Source: a virus
IMG/VR virus record: IMGVR_UViG_3300042922_001475
Coordinates: 124,001-188,000 of that record
DNA: 64,000 nt
Strand: one strand, 5' to 3'
Position 1 is the stretch's first letter. Every line of letters starts with the position of its first letter. Both the position numbers and the translations under genes were made by a program. Below are positions 32,036 through 62,730 of this stretch, one piece after another. The notes under the pieces are model-generated. The model did no database searches. It was not told where the DNA came from and saw only the letters and a program-made list of their open reading frames with translations.

Positions 32036-32201
32036 AGTCTCTTGTCATACCGATAATCTTAGCTACATACTCCATATCACTATCCGTTAGGTGAATAGCG
32101 TATGCTGTTAGGTAGTCCATTACCGCTTGGTGTTGGGCATCAGTAAGAACATCATTCATATTCTTAATGGCCAGTATTAAATCTTTCTTGCTATCGCTCA
32201 T
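31989..32201 (-). CDS. Small helical protein (70 aa)
   Basis: M-S-D-S-K-K-D-L-I-L-A-I-K then helices (V-M-D-Y-L-T-A-Y-A-I-H-L, M-E-Y-V-A-K-I-I-G-M-T-R-D-Y-A-Y-Q). The second half resembles a helix-turn-helix but is too short to be sure. Starts 8 nt after the UUCG hairpin without a visible Shine-Dalgarno and leads the PolA transcription unit. Confidence 0.55.
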   Translation of the reverse strand: MSDSKKDLILAIKNMNDVLTDAQHQAVMDYLTAYAIHLTDSDMEYVAKIIGMTRDYAYQARDLYKKHMGK

Positions 32202-39967: not shown

Positions 39968-40332
39968 TCAATGTCACCTTCTTTATTTTGATAATAGACA
40001 GCCCGTATGCCTGTCTCAGCCAGCATCTCCTGACAGATAGGACAGGGCTTAGAGCAGACTGTATTATCTGCTTTACTCAAACCTGTGACATAGAGTATAG
40101 CCCCATCTAGAGAGATACCTAGTCGTTGAGCCTGTAGCACAGCGTTCAGCTCTGCATGTATAGATCTACCAAGGTTGTATCTACTATCCTTAGCTTCAGC
40201 AATAGACTGCTTGTTAACTCCTCGTGATACTACCTTGCCAGACTTAACGATAATACAGCCCATCTTATAGGGCCAGAATTCACTTTGTCTAGCTAGTCTC
40301 AGAGAAGTATTAATCCAAGCGTTATGTCTCAT
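39940..40332 (-). CDS. dCMP/cytidine deaminase-family protein
   Basis: 130 residues. Zinc motifs H-A-E-L-N-A-V (HxE, ~residue 60) and C-S-K-P-C-P-I-C (PCxxC, ~residue 94) define the cytidine/deoxycytidylate deaminase fold. In context most likely converts dCMP to dUMP for thymidylate synthase; RNA/tRNA-type deaminases cannot be excluded. Start shared with the end of mini-protein 25. Confidence 0.85.
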   Translation of the reverse strand: MRHNAWINTSLRLARQSEFWPYKMGCIIVKSGKVVSRGVNKQSIAEAKDSRYNLGRSIHAELNAVLQAQRLGISLDGAILYVTGLSKADNTVCSKPCPICQEMLAETGIRAVYYQNKEGDIECLSFKSGT

Positions 40333-40586
40333 TTAGTAAATGCTGGCTCCAGGAATTCATTGGGGACCAGGAAGTAAGAGGTCCCCTCAAAGCTATCAGA
40401 TATAACCCAGGTGTAGGTGTTATCATTATAGTAAGGGCTATTCACTTCTACTACCTTATTGATAACTGCCTGATACCTTCGAAGCCTATACTCGGGACCG
40501 AGAATATCGTAATGCTTCAGAGTGGCTCCGGGTTTAACTATTACCAGATCCCCTGGTCTTAGGTTTGATCCAGATGTAGTTGCCAT
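40329..40586 (-). CDS. GDxV/FT mini-protein 25 (header of deaminase)
   Basis: 85 residues, R-P-G-D-L-V-I-V-K-P-G-A, A-V-I-N-K-V-V-E-V and N-E-F-L-E-P-A-F-T-K. Shares P-G-A and V-P-N/T-x-x-L with copy 26, its upstream neighbour. AAA-TGA gives the deaminase ATG. Confidence 0.82.
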   Translation of the reverse strand: MATTSGSNLRPGDLVIVKPGATLKHYDILGPEYRLRRYQAVINKVVEVNSPYYNDNTYTWVISDSFEGTSYFLVPNEFLEPAFTK

Positions 40587-40604
40587 TTCTATCTCTTTCG
40601 AAAG

Positions 40605-44614: not shown

Positions 44615-44817
44615 TACTTAGACACCAGGTAATCTACCCACAGTAGCCAGTGCTCCTGACGGGCCGTAAACTTAGCTGTGTTATCTTTATCAATAAACAA
44701 TACAAGATCGTTAGGATGTTCTTGATCAAGACTCTCGAACAGAACCTTCTGCTCTTCTGTAATATTTTCAAAGACCCTACTGAGGGTCATGTCGTTAGGA
44801 CGTCCTTGTTTCTTCAT
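44614..44817 (-). CDS. Small hypothetical protein (67 aa)
   Basis: M-K-K-Q-G-R-P-N-D-M-T-L-S-R-V-F-E-N-I, then an acidic helix and a tryptophan-rich end (E-H-W-L-L-W-V-D-Y-L-V-S-K). No family recognised. Its ATG is shared with the end of mini-protein 30. Confidence 0.6.
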   Translation of the reverse strand: MKKQGRPNDMTLSRVFENITEEQKVLFESLDQEHPNDLVLFIDKDNTAKFTARQEHWLLWVDYLVSK

Positions 44818-45128
44818 ACCGTAAATATTAATTCCAATTCATGTGCTTCACAGGACCACCCATCGTGGGACTGTTCCTGACCGTAACCCTTTTTTCCAGA
44901 ACCCAATATAAGACTATTAGGGTAAAGATCAATTCTGTATAGTAGTTTACCGGGATCAGCCCCTAGCCAATCTTCAAATATCTCTACGACCTTACCGATC
45001 GAGCCAATCACTTTATCGTAGTTGATACAATAAAGCCCACCATCAACCTTAGTGTCTAGTTGTGTGCCATCACTAAATGACATAGCTTTAACCACAACCA
45101 GGTCACCGACTTTAAATGCTGAAGACAA
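44814..45128 (-). CDS. GDxV/FT mini-protein 30
   Basis: 104 residues from TTG at 45128. K-V-G-D-L-V-V-V-K-A, S-I-G-K-V-V-E-I and A-H-E-L-E-L-I-F-T-V. Has a Gly/Ser/Lys insert before the last strand. GTA-TGA gives the next ATG. Overlaps copy 31 by 17 nt. Confidence 0.82.
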   Translation of the reverse strand: MSSAFKVGDLVVVKAMSFSDGTQLDTKVDGGLYCINYDKVIGSIGKVVEIFEDWLGADPGKLLYRIDLYPNSLILGSGKKGYGQEQSHDGWSCEAHELELIFTV

Positions 45129-45339
45129 GCGTTAGTTCCTCATGCTTGAAGTGAGCTTTTCTGTCCCCCTCAAAACATACAGTATAATCGTATGTGTTAT
45201 CGGCCTTAAAGAGATAGATTATCTCCCCAACAGGTCCTAAGTAATAAGGCTCTAGTGCTTTAGATAAGACCCCACCAGGAGTTATAGCGTGGGCAACCAC
45301 CAGGTCACCCACTTGATATTTAGACTTTGAAGTATTCAT
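45112..45339 (-). CDS. GDxV/FT mini-protein 31
   Basis: 75 residues, Q-V-G-D-L-V-V-A-H, P-V-G-E-I-I-Y-L and H-E-E-L-T-L-V-F-S-I. Its end carries the TTG of copy 30. Starts 20 nt inside the nucleotidyltransferase gene. Confidence 0.82.
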   Translation of the reverse strand: MNTSKSKYQVGDLVVAHAITPGGVLSKALEPYYLGPVGEIIYLFKADNTYDYTVCFEGDRKAHFKHEELTLVFSI

Positions 45340-46039
45340 GATTGCGCCTGATCTTACCTAAGATCTCTTCAGCCTTAGTTACGTTAGCCTTCTTACGAAG
45401 CACACTGTGTTCGTGACACTCAGCTAAGAACCTAAGTCTTAGGTCTAGAGCCCTGAGCATAGCAGTAGGGGATACTTCTCCATGCTTGATACTGAGATAG
45501 AAGTCTACATCTGAGGATGCAACCTTAGGGTTCATGACACGAGTAGTCAGAAACTTACAACCTAGGTCAACAACACGGATAGCGTGCATGACTTCTTTGC
45601 CCGTTACTTTCTTACTATAGTCACCCATATGAATGTCTTCTAGGGTCTTACGAACCTTAGAGGCGTGTCCACGAACACAATTAAAGTAATCATCTCTGGG
45701 AACAATATGAGGGACAACCCTCTGAATCTCATTGTAGATCTTTACGTGACCGATATGCTGTGGCTCAAAGAAGAGCATCTCAAGACATCCGTGGTTACCC
45801 TTAGAGACTAGCCTCAAGAACTTCTCAATCTCATGGAACTCAACATCAGCGGGTTCGTGTAGGCAGACAGTCTCAGCAGGTTTACTAAACCTAAAGAAGT
45901 CTACTGTAGGAGCAACATAGACTCCCTTATAGTCATAATCACTGGTCTCTGTAGCTAGACCAAACCCATGACTACCGCCAACTCCCCAGAAGAGGATCTT
46001 GCCTGGTAGCTGGTCTTCATTGATTGGTAGTTTATCCAT
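45320..46039 (-). CDS. RlaP-type nucleotidyltransferase
   Basis: 239 residues. G-V-G-G-S-H-G-F-G-L-A-T-E-T-S-D-Y-D-Y-K-G-V near residue 20 is the G-S-x-x-x-G…S-D-x-D-x-(K/R)-G-V motif of the pol-beta superfamily clade called RlaP (PF10127 type), which is linked to RNA repair ligases in bacteria and phages. The third acidic residue is probably in E-F-H-E-I-E. The C-terminal half is helical. Expected to add nucleotides to RNA ends or modify a partner. Its partner ligase is likely the fusion at 47074. Confidence 0.8.
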   Translation of the reverse strand: MDKLPINEDQLPGKILFWGVGGSHGFGLATETSDYDYKGVYVAPTVDFFRFSKPAETVCLHEPADVEFHEIEKFLRLVSKGNHGCLEMLFFEPQHIGHVKIYNEIQRVVPHIVPRDDYFNCVRGHASKVRKTLEDIHMGDYSKKVTGKEVMHAIRVVDLGCKFLTTRVMNPKVASSDVDFYLSIKHGEVSPTAMLRALDLRLRFLAECHEHSVLRKKANVTKAEEILGKIRRNHEYFKV

Positions 46040-46049
46040 GGTTACTTTC

Positions 46050-46298
46050 TTATAGAGAGAACATCAGTTCAATCTCATCTTGTTTAACATTCCAGTTACG
46101 TTGGGTACCTGTTTTGTAGGTAAACGTAACTACATAAGGATATGTTGCTCCCTTACGTACTCGTTTGACCTCACCAATAGATCCAATAAACCTAACTATA
46201 GTTGACCCCCTAACTCTACCTGTACCGTATGTACCTGGAGTTACGTTGGTCATTACTACGATGTCGCCAACCTTGTACTTACAAGACTGCTTACCCAC
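46050..46298 (-). CDS. GDxV/FT mini-protein 32 (uncoupled)
   Basis: 82 residues from GTG at 46298 (TAGTG with copy 33). K-V-G-D-I-V-V-M-T, S-I-G-E-V-K-R-V and D-E-I-E-L-M-F-S-L. Basic overall. Ends CTA-TAA, 10 nt before the RlaP ATG, so close but not overlapping. Confidence 0.82.
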   Translation of the reverse strand: MGKQSCKYKVGDIVVMTNVTPGTYGTGRVRGSTIVRFIGSIGEVKRVRKGATYPYVVTFTYKTGTQRNWNVKQDEIELMFSL

Positions 46299-46564
46299 TA
46301 GACGGTAAACACCGGCTCAATCTCAGCTTCAGCCAAACAATAGGACTTATCGATCTGTCTGCCAGACTTAGCTGTAAACTTGAATCTTACATAGTAAGGG
46401 TACTTAGGACTGGAACTGCGTAGATACACAATCTCTCCAAACTCGCCCTCAAAGAAGGGAAGAGCTGAATCTCTTACCGTACCCTTACCATCACCAAAGT
46501 TCTCAGTGATCTTCTTAAAGAGAACCAGGTCTCCTTTATTATATTTACGAGGCTTCTTAGCCAA
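46298..46564 (-). CDS. GDxV/FT mini-protein 33
   Basis: 88 residues, N-K-G-D-L-V-L-F-K-K, E-F-G-E-I-V-Y-L and A-E-I-E-P-V-F-T-V. Like copy 32 it has a basic lead and an Arg/Lys-rich strand, so the two are probably duplicates. TAG-TG overlaps the GTG of copy 32. Confidence 0.82.
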   Translation of the reverse strand: MAKKPRKYNKGDLVLFKKITENFGDGKGTVRDSALPFFEGEFGEIVYLRSSSPKYPYYVRFKFTAKSGRQIDKSYCLAEAEIEPVFTV

Positions 46565-46569
46565 TTAGT

Positions 46570-46881
46570 TTATTCCTCTGGTTTAGCTTTAGATGCCAGA
46601 ATAAACTTCTTGGTGAGACCCGTCACATGACAATCAATCATATACATACAAAAGTTACAGCAGTCCCAGCCTGTTGCAACCTTTCCTTCTACAATTATGT
46701 AGCCATCGATGTTGTCGCGGGGACAGTTAAGTGTCTTTGAATAGTTATCAGAGTCCACCAAGGATTCAATCCTGGTAGCTTTATTAGTTGGGTTATGCTG
46801 GACCATAGCATAACTAAACTTAGAGCTTAGGTATGGTAGGTCCAGCTTACCCTTTAGTAGAATAGGACGACTATCGTCCAT
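46570..46881 (-). CDS. Cysteine-containing hypothetical protein (103 aa)
   Basis: Starts M-D-D-S-R-P-I-L-L-K-G-K-L. Contains L-N-C-P-R-D-N, W-D-C-C-N-F-C-M-Y-M-I-D-C-H near residue 73, a cluster that could bind a metal. Beta-rich. Its start overlaps the membrane-protein gene by 11 nt. Not recognised. Confidence 0.6.
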   Translation of the reverse strand: MDDSRPILLKGKLDLPYLSSKFSYAMVQHNPTNKATRIESLVDSDNYSKTLNCPRDNIDGYIIVEGKVATGWDCCNFCMYMIDCHVTGLTKKFILASKAKPEE

Positions 46882-47074
46882 ACATAGATGCTAGTAACAT
46901 ACCAGCGATGCAGATTAAGTGCAACCAGAACCGAAGTCCTGGCTGCTCAACAATCTTAGCCTCAATGGTAGGGTAGAAGAGAAGTGCTGAGACAGCACAG
47001 AAGAAAGCCACCCCGTATGACCCAAACAACAAGTTTAGGATACAGAGGACAGCCATAAGAACTGAGGAGAACAT
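46871..47074 (-). CDS. Small membrane protein (67 aa)
   Basis: Hydrophobic segments at about residues 3-20 (V-L-M-A-V-L-C-I-L-N-L-L-F), 20-38 and 48-64 (W-L-H-L-I-C-I-A-G-M-L-L-A), so two or three membrane helices. Its start lies on the stop of the RNA repair fusion. A small inner-membrane protein of unknown role. Confidence 0.6.
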   Translation of the reverse strand: MFSSVLMAVLCILNLLFGSYGVAFFCAVSALLFYPTIEAKIVEQPGLRFWLHLICIAGMLLASMYGR

Positions 47075-49317
47075 TATGTCTTTCCTTCATACTTGTTGCG
47101 GACATCTATAACAGACATCTCTTTCAGCTGCTCCGGGTCAAGCGTCTTGATAAACGCGTAGACCTGGGTGTGCTTAGGGGTATACAGTTTAGCTAGGTCA
47201 ACCTTACGATTGTTAGCTACAGCATCCTTAACGGTACGAATCTGTTTCCAGAAGTTGTACCAGGGTAGCTTAATCTTCACCATGAAGCCGGCGCTGTCTT
47301 CAATGACGTAGCCTTCTTCACGAATCATCTCATTCTCAGCATGAAGCTGGTACCACCTCAAGAAGTCCTGCCAGTTACTAATGGTCTCGATCTTCTCCTT
47401 ACAGGTGAAGCCATACCTATTAGCAGTGACCTGGGTCTCCTTGAAGTCTACCTTAGAGTAGTTCTGAGTCCTATGAACAAAGTCCAATAGGATAATCTCA
47501 GGCTTCTTGTATTCAACAATATGAGGATCGTTGACAGGCTCGATAACCTCAAACACCGCAGAGATGTTATTGGTCTTGAGCAGGTCCTTGAACTCAGTCT
47601 GAAGGTTCCAAGCTATCAGATGGTCGTTTAGCTGTTTAGTAAACCACTCAGCAAACGGACCAGTCAGACTTGTCTTGCTGGCGGTAATAACACTATCAGA
47701 AGCATTATCAAAACCTGCAAGACCTAGGAAGCCATTGGACTTAGCGTAGATCCTAATAGGGAACTGGAGAGAGTTCTCCAAGCTATGTAGCTTCGTCTCT
47801 TCTCTCTCGTTCATGTTGAAGAACTTATTGTATGACCGAATAACAATATCTTCGGTCTGAGTGTTCATGAACAACCCACGAGCTTCGATGGTAGTATCAT
47901 TCCACTTCTTATCGTAAAATACATCACGAGTAAAATGAAAACTACTGATATCTCCGAACTTCTTCTCCTGAACCAACTTACTGGATCTTAGTCTCTCCAA
48001 CAGACTACTAGAAGTAGTGTCTGCATTCTGAGCCTTACCAACGGTTGCTTTAAAAGTGTTGTTCTTGATTTCGTGAGTTGTAGGAGCACCTGTTTTGTTG
48101 AATATGACGACCCTCAAGTGGCCACCGAATTCAATCTTTCCCTCTAGGTTAAATGACCTGTCCGCAGCTTGCACGGGGAAGCTTTGGATATTACGGTGTC
48201 CGTGTACCTGGTAGATATTAGATACAGGATCTTTGTCTTTAACTATAAACTGACTGATATCTGTGTATAGCTGTCCCTTGGGGGAGACCCACATGTTAGA
48301 GGTATTGTCAGTAAACAACTGATCAATATGGTCTTTGTAGTTACCTACACCCTTAACCATCTGTTCAGTAGCAATGTAGATGAGATTCTCGGGTAGAGTG
48401 CTCAGGCCACCATGAGTGACCAGCACAGCTTTATCTCCGTGAAGGAAGTACACAATCTGTACTAGCTTACGGCTAAATTCTCTGAGTTCTTTCTTAGTGA
48501 TACCCGCAGCCTCAAGCTGGGGCTGGGTGCTGTTAGTAAAGACACCACTGGTAACCGGATAGTCAAACGCATAGTTCTCGATATGGTCATCGTGGTTACC
48601 GCGTACGAACCTAACGTTAGGCTGGTCGTACATCTTAAGTGCCCACTGAACAACCTTATCGTTTTGAATACCACGGTCTACTAGGTCGCCTGCAAAGATA
48701 TACATCTCGTTAGGGTTCTCTTTAGGATTACCATGAACATTCAAGTACTCTGAGAGGGGATCCCAGCAACCCTGAAGGTCGCCAAAGATGTGAACCTTAT
48801 CGTACTGATTAAAGTCAGTGGGCTTGTAATTGAATACACTTTCCCACTCATAAGGCTTAACTACTGTAACCCAGCCGGGCACAGGGGAGACCTTGAATCT
48901 CTCATAAGCATTGAGAATAACATTCTCAGGTACTTGCTTGTGTTCGGGTCTCAGAAGGTTCTGGACAAGAGCGGTGTCCTTATCGACATCCGAGAAGTCC
49001 AGTACGTAACATCTATAGCGGTAACGCTCACAGAGCTTCTTGTATTGGTTAATCTGATCAGCTTTCTGGTGAGTGGCATCAATAATGGTGAACTCACCCC
49101 GCTTCATGCGCTCTTCGAGAAGCTTGAATAGAAGCTCCCACACCTGTCTGTCGTGCTTCTGACTGATCTGGTACTTACCATCGAGACCTAGCACAGGTCC
49201 CTGGTACATCATACGAATATCGTCAGCGCACAGAGCATACTGACTAAGGTTGTTATTTCTCAGAAAGGTAGACTTACCTGCGCCAGGCGCTCCACGTAAC
49301 AGGACTAGTTGCTTCAT
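47074..49317 (-). CDS. RNA repair fusion: polynucleotide kinase, phosphatase, RNA ligase
   Basis: 747 residues, three domains. Residues ~1-150: kinase with P-loop R-G-A-P-G-A-G-K-S-T-F, C-A-D-D-I-R and I-D-A-T-H. Residues ~175-400: calcineurin-type phosphatase with F-G-D-L-Q-G (GDxxG), A-G-D-L-V-D-R-G, R-G-N-H-D-D and T-H-G-G. Residues ~440-747: RNA ligase with motif I Y-A-K-S-N-G-F-L-G (Lys as AMP acceptor), F-E-V-I-E-P and E-G-Y-V-I…K-I-K. The domain set matches bacterial Pnkp (kinase-phosphatase-ligase), but the ligase looks nearer to T4 Rnl1. Would heal and seal cut tRNA or other RNA, countering host RNA-cleaving defences. Confidence 0.88.
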   Translation of the reverse strand: MKQLVLLRGAPGAGKSTFLRNNNLSQYALCADDIRMMYQGPVLGLDGKYQISQKHDRQVWELLFKLLEERMKRGEFTIIDATHQKADQINQYKKLCERYRYRCYVLDFSDVDKDTALVQNLLRPEHKQVPENVILNAYERFKVSPVPGWVTVVKPYEWESVFNYKPTDFNQYDKVHIFGDLQGCWDPLSEYLNVHGNPKENPNEMYIFAGDLVDRGIQNDKVVQWALKMYDQPNVRFVRGNHDDHIENYAFDYPVTSGVFTNSTQPQLEAAGITKKELREFSRKLVQIVYFLHGDKAVLVTHGGLSTLPENLIYIATEQMVKGVGNYKDHIDQLFTDNTSNMWVSPKGQLYTDISQFIVKDKDPVSNIYQVHGHRNIQSFPVQAADRSFNLEGKIEFGGHLRVVIFNKTGAPTTHEIKNNTFKATVGKAQNADTTSSSLLERLRSSKLVQEKKFGDISSFHFTRDVFYDKKWNDTTIEARGLFMNTQTEDIVIRSYNKFFNMNEREETKLHSLENSLQFPIRIYAKSNGFLGLAGFDNASDSVITASKTSLTGPFAEWFTKQLNDHLIAWNLQTEFKDLLKTNNISAVFEVIEPVNDPHIVEYKKPEIILLDFVHRTQNYSKVDFKETQVTANRYGFTCKEKIETISNWQDFLRWYQLHAENEMIREEGYVIEDSAGFMVKIKLPWYNFWKQIRTVKDAVANNRKVDLAKLYTPKHTQVYAFIKTLDPEQLKEMSVIDVRNKYEGKT

Positions 49318-51076: not shown

Positions 51077-51098
51077 GGGAGAGGCCTAAGCCCCTCCC
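51077..51098 (-). terminator. Terminator of the PRTase gene
   Basis: The minus transcript pairs GGGAGGGGC with GCCTCTCCC through one G-U pair, with loop TTAG. The same pair would be A-C on a plus transcript, showing the minus orientation. The TTGATA promoter hexamer follows directly. The stem overlaps the PRTase stop codon. Confidence 0.7.
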
Positions 51099-51922
51099 AC
51101 CTCACGCATGTTAGCAAATCCGTTATCGTGCCTGAACCTGATCAGTTCAAACCCTTTACGGAACTTATCTTCCTTGTCATACTCTTGCGAGATGCAAGCA
51201 TGATAAAGCTTATCAACGAAGCCATCACTGACTCTGTTGAGGACGACCTCCAGCTCACAGAGCTGAATATCGAGGAGGTATCTAGTAGCACGCACTACCA
51301 ATTGATGGCCGGGCTGTTGAATGAGATTCAGGTAATCCTCAATGGATTGCATACCACAGAAGTTCAACTGGTTCTCGATCTTGGCCATACCGCCCTTATA
51401 GGTAGTGAAGTAGCAGAAGACCGTAGGATTCTCGATTCCCTGCTGGTGCATATACTGTCTGATCTTGGCTTCATGTTTACCGGTGATCAAGCAATCATCA
51501 ACAAACAGCAGGACCTTATCTTGGATGAAGTCCTTATTGAGGTAGAACTCATCAGCCATGATAAGGGCTTCCCTTTTCTCTTCAGGAAGGGTCGAGTAGT
51601 CATCGGTGTAGGAAAGTGTTCTCTGCATGAGAGTCCAATCCAACATCGTGTAACCCTCTCGGGTGAGCTTGTCGTTCAATTCATTTCTGAAGTGACGAGC
51701 AAGAATGGTTGCTGCGATCTCCACAACCTTGAAGGCCGAAGGGATAACAACACATCTCTGAGTGGTTAGTAAGGTCTTGTGCTCTTCCCAGAACTTCTTA
51801 GCCATCTGACGACCAAGCAGACGAGCTGCTCTATCAGAACCAAACTTCAGCTCAGAGTAGTCTCTGGGGTCGAAGTTGGCGGTCTCAATGGATTCGAAGG
51901 TATGGGCGGTGAACTGTTTCAT
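51086..51922 (-). CDS. Phosphoribosyltransferase of the Ter-associated type
   Basis: 278 residues. K-V-L-L-F-V-D-D-C-L-I-T-G-K-H-E near residue 140 is the PRPP-binding motif of type I phosphoribosyltransferases. An early Y-S-E-L-K-F-G-S motif recalls PRTases found in tellurite-resistance (Ter) gene clusters, where they are thought to help make a nucleoside-like metabolite. It overlaps the HAD gene (ATGA), which is the usual partner in such clusters, and lies 0.7 kb from the TerC-superfamily gene. Substrate unknown. Confidence 0.72.
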   Translation of the reverse strand: MKQFTAHTFESIETANFDPRDYSELKFGSDRAARLLGRQMAKKFWEEHKTLLTTQRCVVIPSAFKVVEIAATILARHFRNELNDKLTREGYTMLDWTLMQRTLSYTDDYSTLPEEKREALIMADEFYLNKDFIQDKVLLFVDDCLITGKHEAKIRQYMHQQGIENPTVFCYFTTYKGGMAKIENQLNFCGMQSIEDYLNLIQQPGHQLVVRATRYLLDIQLCELEVVLNRVSDGFVDKLYHACISQEYDKEDKFRKGFELIRFRHDNGFANMREVGGA

Positions 51923-52575
51923 ATCTCTGCTAACACTCTCTTAATATCTTTAGGGCCATTAACGTGTCTGTAGTGCATGCCATACTGGATAGCCGAACCA
52001 TCACAGATGACATTATCGCCTATATGAAGGATCTCTTGAGGCTCTGCCATGGCCAAACTGTCTGCATCACAGGAGACTTTCTCCCAGAACACAGGACTAG
52101 GCTTAGCAGCACCTATTACATCGGAGAAAACCTTGAAGGCCCACTCTACCCCTAATTGGTTCAGCACAGCTTCTGACAGAACCTTGCCTCTAACAAAGTT
52201 AGTATTAGAAGCAATGGACAGCAAGATGTCTTTGTTGGCCTCCTGGAAGACCTGCAAGACCTCTCGAAGGCCTGGCTGGACAGTCGGAGGATAGGCTCTG
52301 AACAAAGCCTCTACGCCTGCACGGATAGGCTCTATAGGCATGCCCTCTCTGCCTGTGTACTTCAGAAACTGATTGTACACTCCCACAGAGCTAAGACCGA
52401 TGCCTTGCTGTTCAGCGTCTTCATCCAGGGCACTCTTAAGAGCTTTGTAGACATTACCCACCTGGACAATGTCTCTACCCAAAGCTTCACCCAAGAATCT
52501 ATTTCTAGCTTGGCCGAACTCAGGGTTAGGGCTTATTAGAGTATTCCAGACATCAAACGACACCACTTTAATCAT
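51919..52575 (-). CDS. HAD-family hydrolase, Ter-module type
   Basis: 218 residues. V-S-F-D-V-W-N-T-L at residues 5-13 (nucleophile D; second D of the usual DxD is W here, D-V-W), I-A-S-N-T-N (motif II), A-K-P-S-P (motif III Lys) and I-G-D-N-V-I-C-D (motif IV). The missing second Asp suggests a dehalogenase-like or altered chemistry rather than a standard phosphatase. HAD enzymes regularly accompany PRTase and TerC/TerD genes. It is co-translated with the PRTase through an ATGA overlap. Confidence 0.8.
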   Translation of the reverse strand: MIKVVSFDVWNTLISPNPEFGQARNRFLGEALGRDIVQVGNVYKALKSALDEDAEQQGIGLSSVGVYNQFLKYTGREGMPIEPIRAGVEALFRAYPPTVQPGLREVLQVFQEANKDILLSIASNTNFVRGKVLSEAVLNQLGVEWAFKVFSDVIGAAKPSPVFWEKVSCDADSLAMAEPQEILHIGDNVICDGSAIQYGMHYRHVNGPKDIKRVLAEI

Positions 52576-52598
52576 ACTAGGGCCTTTCTTCTCTGAAA

Positions 52599-52620
52599 GG
52601 GGAGAGCCTTAGCCCTCCCC
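52599..52620 (-). terminator. Terminator after the TerC-superfamily gene
   Basis: Minus transcript GGGGAGGGC-UAAG-GCUCUCCCC (one G-U pair) followed by TTTCAG. Only 24 nt before the HAD ATG, so HAD-PRTase needs read-through or a promoter further upstream. Confidence 0.75.
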
Positions 52621-52631
52621 CGAATGGCTGG

Positions 52632-53657
52632 TTAGGTAGCTGCTTCGAGCTTCTTAGCCTTGAGGCTACTCATGAAAGCAAACGCAATGAACGCTGCTCC
52701 CACAAGGCCTGTAAAGACCTCAGGTACTCGAACAAACAAACTACCAAGCATGGCAAATGCCAAGAAACCGATACCCCAATGGGCACCATGCTCCAAGTAC
52801 TGGTACTCAGAAAGCGTACCCAGCTCGACCAGCATGATGGTCATAGACCGTACGAACATCGCACCGATCATCAGACCAATCATAATAATCAAAACTAGGT
52901 TAGTCACTGCAAACGCACCAATCACTCCATCAAAAGAGAATGATGCATCCAGGACTTCCAGGTACAAGAAGGACATGGCTCCGCTACGAGTAACTACACC
53001 TGCAGCGTCTTCCTGTTCGAAGACCCCACTGAGCACATCGATGAGGCGCTTGAGACCAAGGCCAGCTACCGAAGCAACAGCAACAGTAAGCTGATGCTGA
53101 GCAGGAGCCAACAAAGCTAGGGAAGCACAAACCAACAGTGAGAAGCCCAAGAGAGCATTCTGATACTGGCCAGCCTTAACTAGCAACTGTTCGATAGGCT
53201 CAAGCCAGTGATGGTCCTTCTCGGGATCAGCAGCCCATGCCATGAACACTTCGAACAAGAACATGCCACCGAATGCCGAAATAGCAGGGTGGGCTTCATG
53301 TAGCTTGTGAGCATACTCGTTAGGATTGGTCAGAGCCATATGAACAACTTCATACGGATTCATCCAAGCTGTGACACAGACAATGAGAATCGGGAACACC
53401 AATCTCATGCCGAACACAGCAATGACCATACCCCAGGTCAAGAACCTACGACGCCATACAGCGTCCATCTTCTTAAGCTCTTTAGCGTTGACGACAGCAT
53501 TATCAAAAGACAAGCTTACTTCGAGTACCGCCAGAATAGCCGCAGAGACAACTGCTGAGATAGCCCCAGCAAGGGCCCCGCCCTGCCATCCGTAAACAGC
53601 AGCCAGAATCAATCCGATAACTGAAACAATGTAAGACCACTTGAAGAACTTTAGCAA
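52632..53657 (-). CDS. TerC-superfamily membrane protein (DUF475-like)
   Basis: 341 residues, about eight membrane helices. Two diagnostic acidic motifs are visible: L-E-V-S-L-S-F-D-N-A-V-V (~residue 45) and L-E-V-L-D-A-S-F-S-F-D-G-V (~residue 233), as in TerC/DUF475 proteins, where they probably form the metal path in the membrane. The best start is TTG at 53657 (GAGAGACGAGC upstream). TerC proteins act with TerD in metal and stress responses and can load manganese onto exported enzymes. Rare in phages. It heads the HAD-PRTase genes. Confidence 0.85.
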   Translation of the reverse strand: MLKFFKWSYIVSVIGLILAAVYGWQGGALAGAISAVVSAAILAVLEVSLSFDNAVVNAKELKKMDAVWRRRFLTWGMVIAVFGMRLVFPILIVCVTAWMNPYEVVHMALTNPNEYAHKLHEAHPAISAFGGMFLFEVFMAWAADPEKDHHWLEPIEQLLVKAGQYQNALLGFSLLVCASLALLAPAQHQLTVAVASVAGLGLKRLIDVLSGVFEQEDAAGVVTRSGAMSFLYLEVLDASFSFDGVIGAFAVTNLVLIIMIGLMIGAMFVRSMTIMLVELGTLSEYQYLEHGAHWGIGFLAFAMLGSLFVRVPEVFTGLVGAAFIAFAFMSSLKAKKLEAAT

Positions 53658-53701
53658 GCTCGTCTCTCTTTCTTATGTTGAGAAGAATAGCTGTCTCTGA
53701 A

Positions 53702-53839
53702 TTAGGTTAGTTTCTTTATAGCCTGGATAACTTCATTAAGCTCCTGCTTAAGCTCATCGTAAGTCTCTTCTGGAATGATTAGATCATCCCACATGACATC
53801 TATATTTTTAAGCTTACTAAGAATCTCTTTAAAAGTCAT
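53702..53839 (-). CDS. Small acidic helical protein (45 aa)
   Basis: M-T-F-K-E-I-L-S-K-L-K-N-I-D-V-M-W-D-D-L, then a helix E-E-T-Y-D-E-L-K-Q-E-L-N-E-V-I. Lies between TerD1 and the TerC-type gene; its ATG overlaps the TerD1 stop. Could be a small regulator of the module, but nothing proves this. Confidence 0.5.
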   Translation of the reverse strand: MTFKEILSKLKNIDVMWDDLIIPEETYDELKQELNEVIQAIKKLT

Positions 53840-54444
53840 TAGCCGATGTTAACACCGTAGTTACGTGCTAGAGTACCAAGGTCCCAATCCTGAGGGAAGC
53901 CCTGACCAACAGCATGGAAGTTCCACTCACCAGCTCCATTCTTACGAAGCTCAGCAAAGATAACCACAGCCAGTCCAGTAAACTCGTCAGCTAGGTCATA
54001 GCGACACAAGGTATTACCTGTGTTCTCATCTACAACCTGCACAAAGGCTCTACCTACATCACCAAAGCTCTGCCTACGGGCCTTGGCTTCATGAATGGTC
54101 ACAGGTAGCACAATCTTATCAATCTTAGAATCAACACGTGATAGAGAAATCTTTAGGGTCTCGCACACATCGGTGCCTGAACCACCCTTAAGGTCATCAC
54201 CCATAGTCTCGACAGAGAGGTCAATGGTCTTAGGCTGACCATAATAACAGAAATAACCGTTAGTAGGGACCTTATCATTGCTCTGCACAAGAATAGCAGA
54301 TGCATCAAGGTCAAAGTCATCACCAGAGGTAACACGAGCCTTCCAACCTAGCTCGACACGAATCTTATCAAGGTTAGCAACAGTCTTCGAAAGGTTAAGC
54401 TTCTCGCTCTTCTTGAGCGTCAGTGCAACAGCGTTAGTAGTCAT
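53839..54444 (-). CDS. terD: TerD-domain stress protein 1
   Basis: 201 residues, one TerD domain. N-L-S-K-T at the start, D-D-F-D-L-D-A-S-A (~residue 42) and G-D-D-L-K-G-G-S-G-T-D followed by I-S-L: the calcium-binding pattern of TerD/TerE/TerZ proteins. L-P-V-T-I-H-E-A and N-T-L-C-R-Y-D-L are also conserved. Base composition matches the surrounding genes, unlike TerD2. Ca2+-binding sensor or scaffold of the Ter stress system. Confidence 0.9.
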   Translation of the reverse strand: MTTNAVALTLKKSEKLNLSKTVANLDKIRVELGWKARVTSGDDFDLDASAILVQSNDKVPTNGYFCYYGQPKTIDLSVETMGDDLKGGSGTDVCETLKISLSRVDSKIDKIVLPVTIHEAKARRQSFGDVGRAFVQVVDENTGNTLCRYDLADEFTGLAVVIFAELRKNGAGEWNFHAVGQGFPQDWDLGTLARNYGVNIG

Positions 54445-54454
54445 GGTTCTTTCT

Positions 54455-54733
54455 TTAGTTATAGGTAATTATGTTGTTAGGCTCTATGATTTTATAGCTT
54501 GTCTTGTTGATAGAATCCCAAATAGTCATCCCTCTAAGATGACCGTGATGATCATACTCTCTATAGGAAATTCTACCTATAATAGTTGTCCGACCCGGAA
54601 CCATTATATTATATGTTTCCTCTGGAGCTTTTGTAGTCTCAGCTTTAGCTTGCTTTGTATTATCACAACTGGCAGCAAGTAAGAGGGTGGCCACTAGGAC
54701 CACCCCCACCAGTTTACTGCGCTTAGCTGCCAT
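54455..54733 (-). CDS. Lipoprotein inside the Ter module (92 aa)
   Basis: From the ATG at 54733: M-A-A-K-R-S-K-L-V-G-V-V-L-V-A-T-L-L-L-A-A-S-C, a basic start, hydrophobic core and a lipobox (L-A-A-S-C) with Cys at 23. The mature part is ~70 residues, beta-rich. The start overlaps the TerD2 stop. Exported and probably anchored in the membrane; its placement between the two TerD genes suggests a link to envelope stress, which is inference. Confidence 0.65.
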   Translation of the reverse strand: MAAKRSKLVGVVLVATLLLAASCDNTKQAKAETTKAPEETYNIMVPGRTTIIGRISYREYDHHGHLRGMTIWDSINKTSYKIIEPNNIITYN

Positions 54734-55334
54734 ACCCGTAGGTCTGGGCGATGTCAGCCAGCGTACCAGGCAGGGCAGCACCCTGAACCTTGGCACGCCA
54801 CTCACCGTTGGAGTCCTTGTACAGCTCGCCGAACAGGAGGGCCTGTGCAGTGGGCACGTCGTCGGACAATGGAACTGACTCAGCCAGCTTGGTGCCGGTG
54901 TCCGCATCACGGAACATGATGACAGCATCCGTGACCTGGCCGAACGTCTGGTTGCGGGTAGCAGCCTCGTGAATGGTCACAGGGAAGACCACCTTGTCAG
55001 CACCCAGAGCTTCGAGCTTCTGGAGGTCGATCGTCAGCACCTCGTCGGGACCATCAGCAGCACCATCCAGGCTGTCGCCCGAGTGCACCACCGAGCCGTC
55101 AGCGTTGCTGAAGCTGCCGTCAGGATTCTTGTTCAGGCCGTAGTAGATGACCTGATCCTTGTCCAAGAGCTTGTTGCCCTTGAGCACCATGGCCGAGGCA
55201 TCCAAGTCGAACTTGGTACCGGGGCTCACCGAAGGCTCCCAGGACAGCTCCACAGCAACCTTCTTGAGGCCAGGAGCAGCTTTGGCAAGGTTGAGGTTCT
55301 CGCCCTTACCGAGGGGAAGAGTGGCAATAGTCAA
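54723..55334 (-). CDS. terD: TerD-domain stress protein 2 (GC-rich)
   Basis: 203 residues from a TTG start at 55334. K-F-D-L-D-A-S-A, G-D-S-L-D-G-A-A-D-G-P-D-E (calcium motif, a better match to consensus than TerD1), F-P-V-T-I-H-E-A and L-F-G-E-L-Y-K form a clean TerD domain. GC content is clearly higher than in TerD1 and neighbours, with C/G-ending codons, so it was either acquired separately or is adapted for strong expression. Overlaps the genes on both sides. Confidence 0.92.
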   Translation of the reverse strand: MTIATLPLGKGENLNLAKAAPGLKKVAVELSWEPSVSPGTKFDLDASAMVLKGNKLLDKDQVIYYGLNKNPDGSFSNADGSVVHSGDSLDGAADGPDEVLTIDLQKLEALGADKVVFPVTIHEAATRNQTFGQVTDAVIMFRDADTGTKLAESVPLSDDVPTAQALLFGELYKDSNGEWRAKVQGAALPGTLADIAQTYGYGS

Positions 55335-55826: not shown

Positions 55827-56123
55827 TTACACTCCAAATATCTTTTCTATGTCTCTAGCTCTAGCTGTAAAGTAGTGGTCACCGTACTTCAAAACATACG
55901 GTCTATCTCCCCAACTACGATGGTCTATAATCTCAGCTATCTGACCTATGGCAGCTTTAGCTTCAGCAGAGAGGGTATTAATACGTGCCCAATCGAGAGT
56001 ATTACTAACTACTACAGAACTATTAAAGTCACTCAAGTATTCTGTACCCATACCATTAACTCCAGCCTGTAGGTGTTTGATTATAACTAGGTCTCCGACC
56101 TGGAATCTCTTATAATAAGGCAT
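55827..56123 (-). CDS. GDxV/FT mini-protein 35
   Basis: 98 residues from the ATG at 56123. Q-V-G-D-L-V-I-I-K, A-I-G-Q-I-A-E-I-I and R-D-I-E-K-I-F-G-V, where G-V replaces T-x, the most divergent ending. TAA is followed immediately by the ATG of the membrane-protein gene. Starts 6 nt after the hairpin. Confidence 0.78.
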   Translation of the reverse strand: MPYYKRFQVGDLVIIKHLQAGVNGMGTEYLSDFNSSVVVSNTLDWARINTLSAEAKAAIGQIAEIIDHRSWGDRPYVLKYGDHYFTARARDIEKIFGV

Positions 56124-56129
56124 AATAAA

Positions 56130-56152
56130 AAGGACCCCTACATGGGGTCCTT
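56130..56152 (-). terminator. Hairpin terminator overlapping the 56138 stop
   Basis: Minus transcript AAGGACCCC / GGGGTCCTT (9 bp, 5-nt loop) followed by TTTTATT. It includes the stop codon of the 56138-56491 gene and is 6 nt from the next ATG. Confidence 0.8.
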
Positions 56153-56491
56153 GAATCTCTTCCAACTGTTTAAGTATAGTTCGGCTGGTGCAAACGTAGT
56201 CAGCTCCCAGTCTGGGTGGTAAAACATAAATGGTCCGTAGTCCTGCATCAAGTAGAACTTGGAGTACTGGGGCCACTTACTTACATTGTTGATAGTTATC
56301 TTTTGAGGAGAAACTAAGTCTAACTTAGGGCTGTACTGTCCGGTGACAATAAAGCCAGGTAGAGCTTCATACTCTACAGTTTCTTCCTCTAGTGTGCCGA
56401 TTTTACAGGGAGTCCACACCTTACACTTAAACTGAATACTGTCAGTGGTTGGGCTGTAATCTGATTCCCATATTTGGCAAGTAACAGACAT
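56138..56491 (-). CDS. Beta-rich hypothetical protein (117 aa)
   Basis: M-S-V-T-C-Q-I-W-E-S-D-Y, then strands (V-E-Y-E-A-L-P-G-F-I-V-T-G, K-I-T-I-N-N-V) and an aromatic end (L-Y-L-N-S-W-K-R-F). It could be a stand-alone barrel, but it lacks the GDxV and F-T signatures. Ends inside the terminator stem. Confidence 0.55.
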   Translation of the reverse strand: MSVTCQIWESDYSPTTDSIQFKCKVWTPCKIGTLEEETVEYEALPGFIVTGQYSPKLDLVSPQKITINNVSKWPQYSKFYLMQDYGPFMFYHPDWELTTFAPAELYLNSWKRFKDPM

Positions 56492-57216: not shown

Positions 57217-57873
57217 TTATTCTCTTCTCCTTTTGATGACGGTGGTCTCTGTTTCTTGCAGGTGAAAGATACAGTTGCTTAGGGTACTGACATCAACAGC
57301 AGTGAACGGAGTAGTAGGGGCTATTAGCTCTACTATTCTCGTAACGTTCTTGTCATCAGTAAAGTAGAATTCGATTCTGTATCTTCGTTCCACACTAGAA
57401 CTTGATGGGATCAGGTCTAGTATGTCCATCATCAGCTTATTGTTACGAGACACGGCGTAGTGATAGGCCCCCCGGCCATTCTCATCTACTATCTCGGTGT
57501 TGGCTCCACAATCAACAAGCTTCTGAACCATTCTTATTCTGTCACGCCTAACCGCTAGGATGAGAGCTGTCTCACCTTTGTGATTGATTGTATCCAGTTC
57601 AATGTTTGGTTCATGTAAGAGCCTATCGAACATGTAGTCTTGGTCGTTGAGTACCGCCAGCATTAATGGGGTAACGTGATCGTGGTTACCGATGTTAGGG
57701 TTTGCCCCGGCATCTAGTAGTCCATCAAACAGTTCTTCGTTACCAGCAATAACAGCTTTGATGAGAGGCGTCTCCCCCGAGTTGCTTCTCTTGTCTAAGC
57801 GTTCAGGATGTTTTCTGACATCCTTTAGGTATTGCTTTAATGCATCTCCAGTTAGATTAGGATCGTCTAACAT
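57217..57873 (-). CDS. Ankyrin-repeat protein 1
   Basis: 218 residues from the ATG at 57873 (AGGAG 8 nt upstream). At least three ankyrin repeats: G-E-T-P-L-I-K-A-V-I-A-G-N, V-T-P-L-M-L-A-V-L-N-D and G-E-T-A-L-I-L-A-V-R-R-D, with G-A-N-P-N and G-A-N-T-E turns. A beta-rich ~60-residue tail (I-E-F-Y-F-T-D-D-K-N-V) follows. Ankyrins bind proteins, often host ones; no fused enzyme. Function unknown. Confidence 0.88.
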   Translation of the reverse strand: MLDDPNLTGDALKQYLKDVRKHPERLDKRSNSGETPLIKAVIAGNEELFDGLLDAGANPNIGNHDHVTPLMLAVLNDQDYMFDRLLHEPNIELDTINHKGETALILAVRRDRIRMVQKLVDCGANTEIVDENGRGAYHYAVSRNNKLMMDILDLIPSSSSVERRYRIEFYFTDDKNVTRIVELIAPTTPFTAVDVSTLSNCIFHLQETETTVIKRRRE

Positions 57874-57907
57874 AGTTTGCACTCCTATCTCTGATATCTC
57901 TGAATAG

Positions 57908-58595: not shown

Positions 58596-58844
58596 CTATA
58601 CCGAAAAGATTAACTCTAGTTCATATTTGTGAGCCCAAAGGCCCAGACCATCGAATACTATCCAGTACCAACTGTTTATCATGGGGTCGCCCATTGGCCC
58701 ACGAGGCATGATAACCTCAGCTATCTGACCTACGTATCGGCTAATGTAACGACCCCTACCTGTGTTATAGACTTGACCTGGTGTACGAACAGCAGTATTA
58801 ACTCTCTTGATTACAACAAGGTCACCCTTATGGAATAAAGTCAT
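58596..58844 (-). CDS. GDxV/FT mini-protein 37 (uncoupled)
   Basis: 82 residues, H-K-G-D-L-V-V-I-K-R, Y-V-G-Q-I-A-E-V and K-Y-E-L-E-L-I-F-S-V. Strong family match. Ends GTA-TAG with no start overlapping; the next gene begins 77 nt downstream. Confidence 0.83.
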   Translation of the reverse strand: MTLFHKGDLVVIKRVNTAVRTPGQVYNTGRGRYISRYVGQIAEVIMPRGPMGDPMINSWYWIVFDGLGLWAHKYELELIFSV

Positions 58845-59071
58845 TTAGTAAAGAAGAGTTCTATCTCTTCTCTCCCAAAGTAATCGGCCTCATAGTCGTT
58901 ATAGTCCTTATCAAACTTTAGAAAGTACTCTAGGCCTTGACGACAGCCAAGGTCTAGATGCTCAACCTCATAGATTTTGCCTATGTGGGTGCCCTTCCAG
59001 TCGTCTCTTCCAGACCTGGGGCCATCAGATAGAACTATAACCAGATCACCAGGTTTAATGTTATTCGTCAT
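58841..59071 (-). CDS. GDxV/FT mini-protein 38
   Basis: 76 residues, K-P-G-D-L-V-I-V-L, H-I-G-K-I-Y-E-V and R-E-E-I-E-L-F-F-T-K. AAA-TGA gives the ATG of copy 37. Starts 11 nt inside the end of the RNA ligase gene. Confidence 0.83.
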   Translation of the reverse strand: MTNNIKPGDLVIVLSDGPRSGRDDWKGTHIGKIYEVEHLDLGCRQGLEYFLKFDKDYNDYEADYFGREEIELFFTK

Positions 59072-60284
59072 ACTTGAGGTTAAACTTAGGGCTGATAACC
59101 TTGAAGCTTACGAAGCCAGCGTTTAGATCACCCAGATCAAAATCGAACTTAGGCTCGACTAGTCTGTAGACATCACCTTCACGCTCAGTCTTCTTGTTAT
59201 GAACCGACTTACCTTCGGCCATAGCCACAAGCTCGTCCACTGTGTGATTGAGAACAAAGTCTCTATCGATGATAGGAACCATGTTAAGGCCTAGAGCTCT
59301 AACAAGCTTCTCAGTTTCTTCAAGACTATAATAGGTAAGGCTATCCGGATCGAATGCCTGAAAGACGAATAGATCCTTCTTCTTAAAGTCATACTTGTTA
59401 CCCTGAATACCGGGACCACACATCTCACCCTGAATAACCAGATTGGTTCCAAAAGGAGTGCAGAGTGACCTCATCTTAGTTTCCAGGTCCAGCTCAAGGG
59501 CTAGCTCCCAGAAGGTAGGATCAACTCCAGCATCAATGTCCACAAGAGCTAGCAGCTCGTTGAAGAACTTCTTACGAACAATACCAGTCCACTTAGGATT
59601 GTACTTGTCCATAAAGATAGTCCACTTGTACTCAGCCATCTTAATCTTCTTACGAAGGTTAAACTTAGTACAGACCTTGGACCACCAATCATCACCAGGA
59701 CGCGCTAGCTCTAGGTTACGAGAAGCAATACCGAACTTACCATCTTTGAGGTAGGCAGTGAAGCTGGAACCGTCCATCTTCTCAGCCCTATAGAATCTAT
59801 GACCTCTGTACTTCTCCAGGAGCTTCTCCAAGATCTGTACACGAGTCTCGTCAGTCTTATAGATGAACGAGGGGAAGGGCATACCAGACTTCTTCCGGAA
59901 GACACCAGCCAACTTAGGCTGACCCTTCTGAGGCTTCTGGTAGGGCTCCCACTTCTTGATACCGATGACATCAGTCACGTCAGTACCCTCAGGGCAGCCT
60001 TGCATGTTTTTAGGTAGAATAGTTACAGGGAAGCAGATACCCTGAGAGATCTGACCACGGAGCTTAATAGTCTGGACTCTGAACTTACGCTGACGCATAA
60101 ACTCAAACTCAGGCTTCTCCGGTAGGAGAGAATCGATCTCAACGTAAACACACTTATCACCAGGTTTAAACTCGTCAAGTTTTACAACTACGTTCCAACC
60201 AAGTACCCTAGCTCTCTGAATAGCATCAGCGCCCTCAATGGGCTGAATATCTTTGATAGTCTGAATAGAGGCTAGTTTTCTCAT
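59061..60284 (-). CDS. RNA ligase, Rnl5/DRB0094-like
   Basis: 407 residues. An N-terminal ~125-residue OB-like domain (I-K-D-I-Q-P-I-E-G-A-D, then G-D-K-C-V-Y-V-E-I-D) precedes the ligase core, the order seen in Deinococcus RNA ligase (Rnl5 family), which joins a 3'-OH RNA end to a 5'-phosphate in a nicked duplex. Motif I Y-R-A-E-K-M-D-G-S-S (Lys AMP acceptor, ~residue 168), F-G-I-A-S-R-N, I-Q-G-E-M-C-G-P-G and E-G-D-V-Y-R-L with a later F-K-V are present. A second, different RNA ligase beside the fusion at 47074. Confidence 0.88.
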   Translation of the reverse strand: MRKLASIQTIKDIQPIEGADAIQRARVLGWNVVVKLDEFKPGDKCVYVEIDSLLPEKPEFEFMRQRKFRVQTIKLRGQISQGICFPVTILPKNMQGCPEGTDVTDVIGIKKWEPYQKPQKGQPKLAGVFRKKSGMPFPSFIYKTDETRVQILEKLLEKYRGHRFYRAEKMDGSSFTAYLKDGKFGIASRNLELARPGDDWWSKVCTKFNLRKKIKMAEYKWTIFMDKYNPKWTGIVRKKFFNELLALVDIDAGVDPTFWELALELDLETKMRSLCTPFGTNLVIQGEMCGPGIQGNKYDFKKKDLFVFQAFDPDSLTYYSLEETEKLVRALGLNMVPIIDRDFVLNHTVDELVAMAEGKSVHNKKTEREGDVYRLVEPKFDFDLGDLNAGFVSFKVISPKFNLKYDE

Positions 60285-60547
60285 TTAGTAAATACCAATT
60301 CCAAATCATCTGGGTGTACCAGTCTAGTATTATCCGAACGTCCAGGGTATGCACCCAGTGTAATATACACATGGTCTTCCCAGAGAGTAGAGCCAGTTGG
60401 ATACAGATATTCGAACACAGCCCCTATATCTGCTTCTGTTGGAGCATAAGAAGTTGCTTTTCTGTATCTGCAATTATCTAGACGGGTTAGTATAACCAAG
60501 TCACCACTAGAGAAGTTCTTCGAGGCTCTCACGAATAGCTGCCTCAA
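60281..60547 (-). CDS. GDxV/FT mini-protein 39 (header of RNA ligase)
   Basis: 88 residues from TTG at 60547, or fewer from GTG at 60532. S-S-G-D-L-V-I-L-T, D-I-G-A-V-F-E-Y and P-D-D-L-E-L-V-F-T-K. AAA-TGA gives the ligase ATG. Overlaps the ankyrin gene by up to 41 nt. Confidence 0.8.
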   Translation of the reverse strand: MRQLFVRASKNFSSGDLVILTRLDNCRYRKATSYAPTEADIGAVFEYLYPTGSTLWEDHVYITLGAYPGRSDNTRLVHPDDLELVFTK

Positions 60548-60833
60548 CTTCTAGAGTGTCGATGTAATAATCCTCGTTTGCATCAAGGTAACTCAACGCA
60601 GTCATACCAAAGTTATCTTCGAGTTTAGGGTTAGCACCCTGCTGTTTGAGATAAGCATAGACAGTAATGTCAGTACTTAGGGCAGCTAGTACTAGAGGTG
60701 TTGCTCCATCACTATCAGTACAGTTAATATCTGCACCAAGAGTTAGAGCTTCGATAACATCTTCTATATTGTTCTCTGAGGCCGCTTTTAGCAGCATAGC
60801 GTTATACGCTTCTTGAAGGATTTGTTGATTCAT
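60507..60833 (-). CDS. Ankyrin-repeat protein 2
   Basis: 108 residues, about two and a half ankyrin repeats: A-M-L-L-K-A-A-S-E-N-N-I-E-D-V, G-A-D-I-N-C-T-D-S-D-G-A-T-P-L-V-L-A-A, and G-A-N-P-K-L-E-D-N-F-G-M-T-A-L. The end is an acidic helix (E-A-A-I-R-E-S-L-E-E-L-L). Small protein-binding module; partner unknown. Confidence 0.85.
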   Translation of the reverse strand: MNQQILQEAYNAMLLKAASENNIEDVIEALTLGADINCTDSDGATPLVLAALSTDITVYAYLKQQGANPKLEDNFGMTALSYLDANEDYYIDTLEVEAAIRESLEELL

Positions 60834-61971: not shown

Positions 61972-62730
61972 TTAAGCGACGAGGCCTTTGGCACGAGCCT
62001 GCTTGAGCCAGCCGGGGAACTCGGTGAGGATCTTCCCATAGAGCTTAGGCCCATCGAGGGTCGGCTCCATGTGGAAGAAGTCAGCATTGTCCAGGAAGCG
62101 ACCAGTCAGGTCGTCCAGCTTCTGGAGGAACTTGAACTGCTCGTTGCCGATGCCCACGAACTGGAAGAAGATGGCATGAGTCGAGGCGTCACGAAGAGCC
62201 TTCTCAGTCTCGGGGTGATCGAAGTTCTCACCATCGGTCAGGAAGAACACGAAGGTAGGAACCTCCGGAGTGCGCTCCTCGCTAGACACGTGGGTGACAG
62301 TCTCGGTCTTACCGAAGAAGCCCATGATGCCCTTAGCCTTCTCAGTGGTCGTGGTGATCTGCTGCTGCTTGTTGCCCATGTCAGCCACGATGGCGTTGAT
62401 GGTGTAAGCAAACATGGTACCACCACTGGCACGGATGTTCTTGTTGATCCAGCCATCCGAGTTGGAGACGGACATGGTACCAACCTTACCATGGTTGATG
62501 GTGTAGACGTCGATCTGCTGATCCGGATCCCAATGGGCCGACAAGGCGAGCAGACGGTCAGCAACGTTCTGGACCTGGCCAGACGAATACTCACCACCCA
62601 TGCTACCGGAGTCGTCCAGGACAACCACAACGTTCGCTCTCAGAGTGTCGAGGTTCTTCTTCTCCAAGGTCAGCTTGACTTCCTTCTGGAGGGTCAGCTG
62701 GTCTTCCTTCTTGAGAGAAAGCATAGTCAT
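61972..62730 (-). CDS. TerF/TerY-like vWA-domain protein
   Basis: 252 residues. A charged helical lead (~30 residues) precedes a vWA domain: V-V-V-V-L-D-D-S-G-S-M-G (MIDAS DxSxS), A-S-G-G-T-M (Thr), and F-F-L-T-D-G-E-N-F. This is the domain at the end of TerF and alone in TerY of tellurite-resistance operons; metal-dependent binding of partner proteins is expected. GC-rich like TerD2. Lies next to a Met-rich protein. Confidence 0.85.
   Translation of the reverse strand: MTMLSLKKEDQLTLQKEVKLTLEKKNLDTLRANVVVVLDDSGSMGGEYSSGQVQNVADRLLALSAHWDPDQQIDVYTINHGKVGTMSVSNSDGWINKNIRASGGTMFAYTINAIVADMGNKQQQITTTTEKAKGIMGFFGKTETVTHVSSEERTPEVPTFVFFLTDGENFDHPETEKALRDASTHAIFFQFVGIGNEQFKFLQKLDDLTGRFLDNADFFHMEPTLDGPKLYGKILTEFPGWLKQARAKGLVA

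Follow-up and report, generated by a model that had tools for sequence, protein, structure and literature searches.

The 64,000-nucleotide stretch of DNA analysed here (the window; positions 124001–188000 of the 200,185 bp IMG/VR record IMGVR_UViG_3300042922_001475) encodes, at positions 51086–55334, a tellurite-resistance (Ter) module of a bacteriophage, to which a TerF-like vWA protein encoded about 7 kb away also belongs. In the order of transcription, on the minus strand, the cluster consists of a TerD gene, a small lipoprotein-like open reading frame (ORF), another TerD gene, and the genes of a DUF475/TerC-superfamily membrane protein, a HAD-superfamily hydrolase and a PRTase_3 phosphoribosyltransferase (PRTase). 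The spacing is operon-like, with overlaps between the HAD and PRTase genes and between the lipoprotein-like ORF and a TerD gene. The Pfam E-values of the module proteins range from 1e-8 to 1e-98, which places the family assignments beyond doubt, and all the module genes except the lipoprotein-like ORF match phage protein families (PHROG), so these families are known in phages. The record also contains genes for a large terminase subunit, a portal protein and a tail sheath, and the virus is thus a contractile-tailed phage (myovirus). The initial annotation, made from the letters of the window, had described the same cluster, the distant TerF-like protein and their carriage by the phage itself, and all three are confirmed. 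The gene identities of a real phage Ter module are therefore well supported; its mechanism, in contrast, we only infer. Phage-borne Ter systems were published in essence in 2021, the novelty is low, and the window adds a good further case to a kind of system that was already known. Three new points are the most useful: the HAD–PRTase_3 pair is associated with TerC and TerD in large phages, it occurs independently of them in rhizobia, and its HAD protein has an unusual active site.

Among 50,697 phage records, no relative was found at the DNA level, while tblastn detects relatives of the PRTase in 154 records, of TerD in 175 and of TerC/DUF475 in 37. When whole records were searched with Pfam models, TerD and TerC were found together in every tested large record with PRTase_3 (13/13; at least 140 kb each, the window's own included), and TerF in 12 of the 13. 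Records of 55 kb or less were treated as fragments and excluded (TerD is present in one of four such records, 17–55 kb long). Since 11 of the 13 records were found via the PRTase or the HAD alone, the co-occurrence is not built in by selection. An all-against-all comparison of neighbouring ORFs gives a similar picture: the ter genes (TerD, TerF, TerC/DUF475, TelA) are the only families that recur beside HAD–PRTase across unrelated phages. In this comparison L011, L013, L015, L016 and L033 were chosen via TerC, while L018, L035, L040, L042, L050 and a Hymenobacter plasmid were not. The distance between PRTase and TerD is also smaller than under random placement (Fisher p = 0.012 for nine lineages without the window, 0.003 with the window), the two genes lying within 10 kb of each other in 4 of the 9 lineages. 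The distance test is moderate evidence, as it is driven by few lineages, which are only roughly independent.

The order of the pair is conserved as well. The HAD gene is directly followed by the PRTase gene, overlapping or abutting it, in Caulobacter, Brevundimonas, Rhizobium, Xanthomonas and enterobacterial phages, and the same order is kept in IMG/VR contigs (a scan of IMG/VR with the single PRTase sequence gave no relatives; a profile scan recovered them). The initial annotation had named a failure of PRTase and HAD to group with ter-linked families as one result that would refute it. The 13 of 13 records, the recurrent ter neighbours and the Hymenobacter plasmid described below all show the grouping instead, and the association of HAD–PRTase_3 with TerC and TerD in large phages is obligate-looking.

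The PRTase (51086–51922, minus strand; 278 amino acids; PF15610, E = 2.7e-47; phrog_13415, E = 4e-96) has an intact loop for phosphoribosyl pyrophosphate (PRPP), LLFVDDCLITGKHE, with D142-D143 and T147-G148 invariant in 16 homologues. The AlphaFold2 model is confident (predicted local distance difference test score, pLDDT, of 91.6), and the Foldseek matches listed include HGPRT and PyrR. After realignment the best match is ComF (7p0h; Z 12.0, root-mean-square deviation (rmsd) 3.0 over 152 residues), followed by HGPRTs near Z 9.7. As modelled, the protein is a type I PRTase of the ComF/HGPRT-like fold with a PRPP loop.

ComF as the best re-aligned match also brings in an explanation in which the PRTase would act on PRPP or nucleotides as an effector of conflict or as a counter-defence enzyme, the HAD would be its modulator, and the ter link would result from conflict genes accumulating in large phages. 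The PRTases of invasive elements are ComFC-like, and nucleotide production or sensing at DNA entry has been proposed for them by Aravind's group (PMC5512222). The protein of the window also matches PRTase-CE (E = 0.0018, below the cut-off) and ShosT (E = 0.0038), the latter being the sole output of PADLOC, which returned no Ter match. These scores are weak, however, the co-occurrence is invariant with TerC and TerD specifically, and no antitoxin-like partner accompanies the PRTase; we consider this explanation quite improbable.

The HAD gene (51919–52575, minus strand; 218 amino acids; PF00702, E = 1.6e-8; phrog_14393, E = 2e-53) overlaps the PRTase gene by 4 nucleotides (ATGA), with the HAD stop codon lying over the PRTase start. 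Membership of the HAD superfamily is shown by the invariant nucleophile D8, S123 (motif II), K158 (motif III), and G186-D187 with D192 (GDxxxxD), and the AlphaFold2 model (pLDDT 96.6) has a Rossmann fold. Motif I reads FDVWNT, a Trp replacing the second Asp (DxW) in 30 of 30 distinct homologues, bacterial ones included. HAD phosphatases (the DxDxT class) usually employ this second Asp as their general acid/base, so phosphatase activity is not to be assumed, and "HAD phosphatase" is an unproven label for the sequence. The closest solved structure, 2om6 (Z 20.8), is annotated only as a probable phosphoserine phosphatase and shares FDVWNTL; the motif is thus an existing variant and not damage. 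In NCBIfam the HAD protein, like TerC, received only names below the cut-off.

The HAD protein is similar, too, to the phosphatase part of the polysaccharide ribofuranosyltransferase 7shg (profile E = 8e-6; Z 17.7, rmsd 3.6 over 201 residues). Published ribofuranosyltransferases combine a PRPP-using transferase domain with a phosphatase domain of the HAD type (PMC11127046, PMC12096443), and together these likenesses provide a concrete rival to the idea of a nucleoside-like metabolite. The pair would be an independent ribofuranosyltransferase-like unit, placing ribose-5-phosphate from PRPP onto a surface glycan or other acceptor, which the HAD would dephosphorylate; the host surface would be altered and rival phages excluded, with ter as a separate stress cassette. 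The pairing of a PRPP-using transferase with a HAD of similar fold is common to 7shg and the window (the two proteins of the window are separate polypeptides, unlike in 7shg), and the pair occurs alone in rhizobia and away from terCD in several phages. On the other hand, 2om6 and several generic HADs score at least as well as 7shg, and the PRTase matches ComF and HGPRT/PyrR, with no glycan PRTase, and not the PRTase domain of 7shg, among the 50 matches listed. Recurrent glycosyltransferase neighbours are absent, and independence of the pair would leave the 13 of 13 co-occurrence with ter unexplained. This explanation is rather unlikely in our judgement.

The HAD–PRTase unit is separated from terC by a spacer with a strong hairpin (52576–52631, minus strand; GGGGAGGGCTAAGGCTCTCCCC), where a 60-nucleotide stretch folds at -23.4 kcal/mol. 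Besides this hairpin 3' of terC, a second one is found 3' of the PRTase gene, and the flanking hairpins may delimit a transcription or processing unit of its own. The distance matrices of HAD and PRTase correlate weakly (r = 0.26, p = 0.06), therefore no strict co-evolution of the two proteins is claimed.

The DUF475/TerC-superfamily membrane protein (52632–53657, minus strand; 341 amino acids, TTG start; DUF475 PF04332, E = 3e-98; TerC PF03741, E = 1.6e-17; phrog_30252, E = 4e-91) contains, as read from its sequence, both acidic motifs, LEVSLSFDN and EVLDASFSFDG. One TerD protein (53839–54444, minus strand; 201 amino acids; PF02342, E = 8e-54) matches the solved TerD structures 2kxt/2kxv (phmmer E = 1.4e-42) and retains the acidic residues D45, D47, D83 and E95, as do 8 of 8 aligned TerD proteins. 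The second TerD, terD-b (54723–55334, minus strand; 203 amino acids; PF02342, E = 9e-44), has a TTG start overlapping the upstream stop. The TerF-like vWA protein (61972–62730, minus strand; 252 amino acids; PF10138, E = 7e-50) has an intact metal ion-dependent adhesion site (MIDAS) pattern (DDSGS, GGT, TDG), whose motifs are invariant in five phage homologues. The genes of terD-b and the TerF-like protein are outliers in GC content at the third codon position (GC3; 0.74 and 0.76, respectively, versus a mean of 0.48 for 154 ORFs), which may reflect recent or foreign acquisition or strong expression.

The small ORF between the two TerD genes (54455–54733, minus strand; 92 amino acids; N-terminus MAAKRSKLVGVVLVATLLLAASC) has no Pfam or PHROG match. 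A signal peptide and LLLAASC, a plausible but non-ideal lipobox, can be read in it, in agreement with the lipoprotein of the initial annotation; as a conserved component of the module it was dropped, since the neighbourhood comparison gave no homologue at comparable loci. The MoxR/vWA pair at 32–36 kb, which had been counted in the Ter set, was set aside too, because it matches other families and has no Ter link. It comprises a protein matching a PHROG "ATPase" (32246–33685) and a DUF2201 metallopeptidase + vWA-like protein (34559–36274).

The literature on bacterial ter genes connects them both with phages and with metals. Insertions in terC, terD and terZ lower phage inhibition (Whelan 1995, cited by PMC12054061), and eight phages form larger plaques when terC is deleted in Klebsiella (PMC12054061). 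The same source attributes to bacterial (Klebsiella) terC a contribution to tellurite and zinc resistance; TerC proteins are presented as metal-handling membrane proteins in PMC10550928 and PMC12096827, the former ascribing manganese roles to them. The cluster might serve mainly the metal, oxidative or xenobiotic tolerance of the infected (pseudolysogenic) cell, with no anti-phage role. The strong transcription of terD regions in Jug phages, which was interpreted as a sign of stress (PMC12363816), is consistent with this explanation, as is the outlying GC3 of terD-b and terF if it reflects strong expression. High GC3 is, however, equally compatible with foreign origin, the bacterial ter insertions affect phage inhibition too, and no metal-specific regulator was noticed in the window, where no systematic search for one was made. 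Tolerance as the main role is, overall, unlikely.

The explanation that we put forward tentatively, and hold to be somewhat short of probable, is a phage-encoded Ter stress/defence module of two cooperating units. The first would be a membrane and metal unit made of the DUF475/TerC protein, the two TerD proteins and the TerF-type vWA protein 7 kb off. From what is known of the families, the DUF475/TerC protein is a predicted divalent-metal transporter, the TerD proteins are predicted to be Ca2+-dependent and cytoplasmic, and the vWA protein is a predicted Mg2+/MIDAS adaptor; the metal and calcium roles and the membrane location are assigned by this family analogy. The second unit would be the translationally overlapped HAD–PRTase pair, in which the PRTase would ribosylate an acceptor (base-like or glycan) using PRPP and the HAD would process the product; the unit probably makes a ribose-containing small molecule. 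The product would act on, or be sensed by, the first unit, and the envelope of the infected cell would be hardened against superinfecting phages or chemical stress. We only infer the product, the communication of the two units and the exclusion phenotype.

Several observations weigh against this two-unit module. The overlapping HAD–PRTase pair is found on Rhizobium and Sinorhizobium plasmids (several copies near repA and phaCE) with no ter gene annotated near it, tblastn searches of the regions flanking it in eight Sinorhizobium/Ensifer contigs detected no ter gene, and TerD is missing in 6 of 7 Sinorhizobium/Ensifer genomes that carry the pair; HAD–PRTase can thus work without Ter. In several phages the pair lies 28–165 kb from TerD, and physical linkage is therefore not general. 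The converse of the co-occurrence fails, as ter genes occur without PRTase_3 in ME3 and CcrBL9. A search for TelA (PF05816) across the window's record, which may be incomplete because no end repeats were found when looked for, gave no match; TelA is an accessory component of some Ter clusters only. The Trp in motif I of the HAD protein counts here as well. The likeness to bacterial Ter systems asserted in the initial annotation thus holds for the Ter-family genes and the ter linkage, and is weakened by the rhizobial pair without ter and the HAD without the second Asp. The enterobacterial ter biosynthetic operon has ATP-grasp or aldolase-like companions.

The plasmid of Hymenobacter monticola (NZ_CP094537) is a bacterial case of the linkage, with vWA-vWA-TerD-TerD-TerD directly beside HAD–PRTase. 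The pair is a movable unit that is Ter-associated but not always Ter-dependent. PRTase_3 is very rare in Pseudomonadota, where 1 of 398 genomes scored over the cut-off, this one being the genome used as the centre. A more novel reading is a distinct HAD(DxW)–PRTase_3 pathway shared by many unrelated large phages and rhizobial plasmids, which would make a new ribosylated molecule (a nucleoside-like signal or a surface glycan) with a non-standard HAD acid/base, the phage Ter proteins being its receptors or effectors; we regard such a pathway as distinctly unlikely. For the Ter system in general, the product and the anti-phage role have been open questions since the 1990s, and a compact phage version, with a conserved pair of enzymes that can be purified, and removed from the model phages phi92 and CcrColossus, makes them testable. 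The ter company in large phages, the independence on plasmids and the missing HAD Asp sharpen what is to be tested.

Ter systems in jumbo phages, including biosynthesis by PRTase and HAD in Acinetobacter phage ME3 and abbreviated Ter operons in Caulobacter phages, were described by Iyer et al. 2021 (PMC7824862), together with the hypotheses, shared with the present proposal, of competition against superinfecting phages and of xenobiotic resistance. Compared with the published jumbo-phage systems, the window has two TerD genes and TelA was not found. ME3 resembles it in having TerC, TerD, TerF-vWA and a predicted PRTase and HAD arm in a large tailed phage; its PRTases and HAD, however, are of other families (15–19% identity to those of the window), its HAD has DLDLT, and PRTase_3 is absent. 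CcrColossus, of the Caulobacter group cited as abbreviated, has the same HAD–PRTase pair 28 kb from its terD. In Stephanstirmvirinae (phi92, phAPEC8, FKP3), as in the window, overlapping HAD and PRTase genes follow each other, about 8–10 kb from TerD, and the records of these phages also contain TerC and TerF; TelA is annotated in phi92 and FKP3, unlike in the window, phi92 and phAPEC8 differ in having a canonical TerC instead of DUF475, and many small genes intervene at these loci. The Hymenobacter plasmid, where HAD–PRTase_3 likewise adjoins ter genes (three TerD, two vWA), is bacterial, has a divergent orientation, and shows no annotated TerC within 6 kb on either side. The rhizobial plasmid pair shares both overlapping enzymes and the DxW motif with the window and differs from it in having no ter genes nearby.

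A gene next to the Ter PRTase of ME3 also has a counterpart here: positions 10986–13112 of L003 (minus strand) encode a 709-amino-acid homologue (38%) of ME3 gp284 (PHROG 1735). In ME3 gp284 adjoins the Ter PRTase, whereas the homologue and the ter genes are more than 150 kb apart on the linear record. A relative of the PRTase on an Enterobacter plasmid (28% over two thirds) was set aside as too distant. On that plasmid, pAR0468_1 (L054), it is accompanied by a radical SAM gene and a histidinol-phosphatase-like one, close to a WYL regulator and AbpA, in a defence-like island.

On both sides of the module the window contains further genes of interest. RNA-repair genes are located at 45320–49317 (a kinase/phosphoesterase/RNA-ligase fusion and an RlaP-type nucleotidyltransferase), and the protein encoded at 59061–60284 is related to a protein of phage XaC1 that is annotated as an RNA ligase and encoded near its PRTase. 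Other genes of the record with high GC3, scanned for structural functions, gave no clear answer. At least nine small paralogues are present on the minus strand (23045–23335, 27343–27594, 31709–32044, 40329–40604, 44814–45131, 55827–56276, 58596–58844, 58841–59107 and 60281–60550), with none of three tested having a PHROG match. They share an N-terminal GDLVI(V/L), most of them also a C-terminal LELxFT(V/K/I), and form an expanded phage gene family. Finally, the proteins at 57217–57882 and 60507–60833, judged by eye, are ankyrin-repeat-like.

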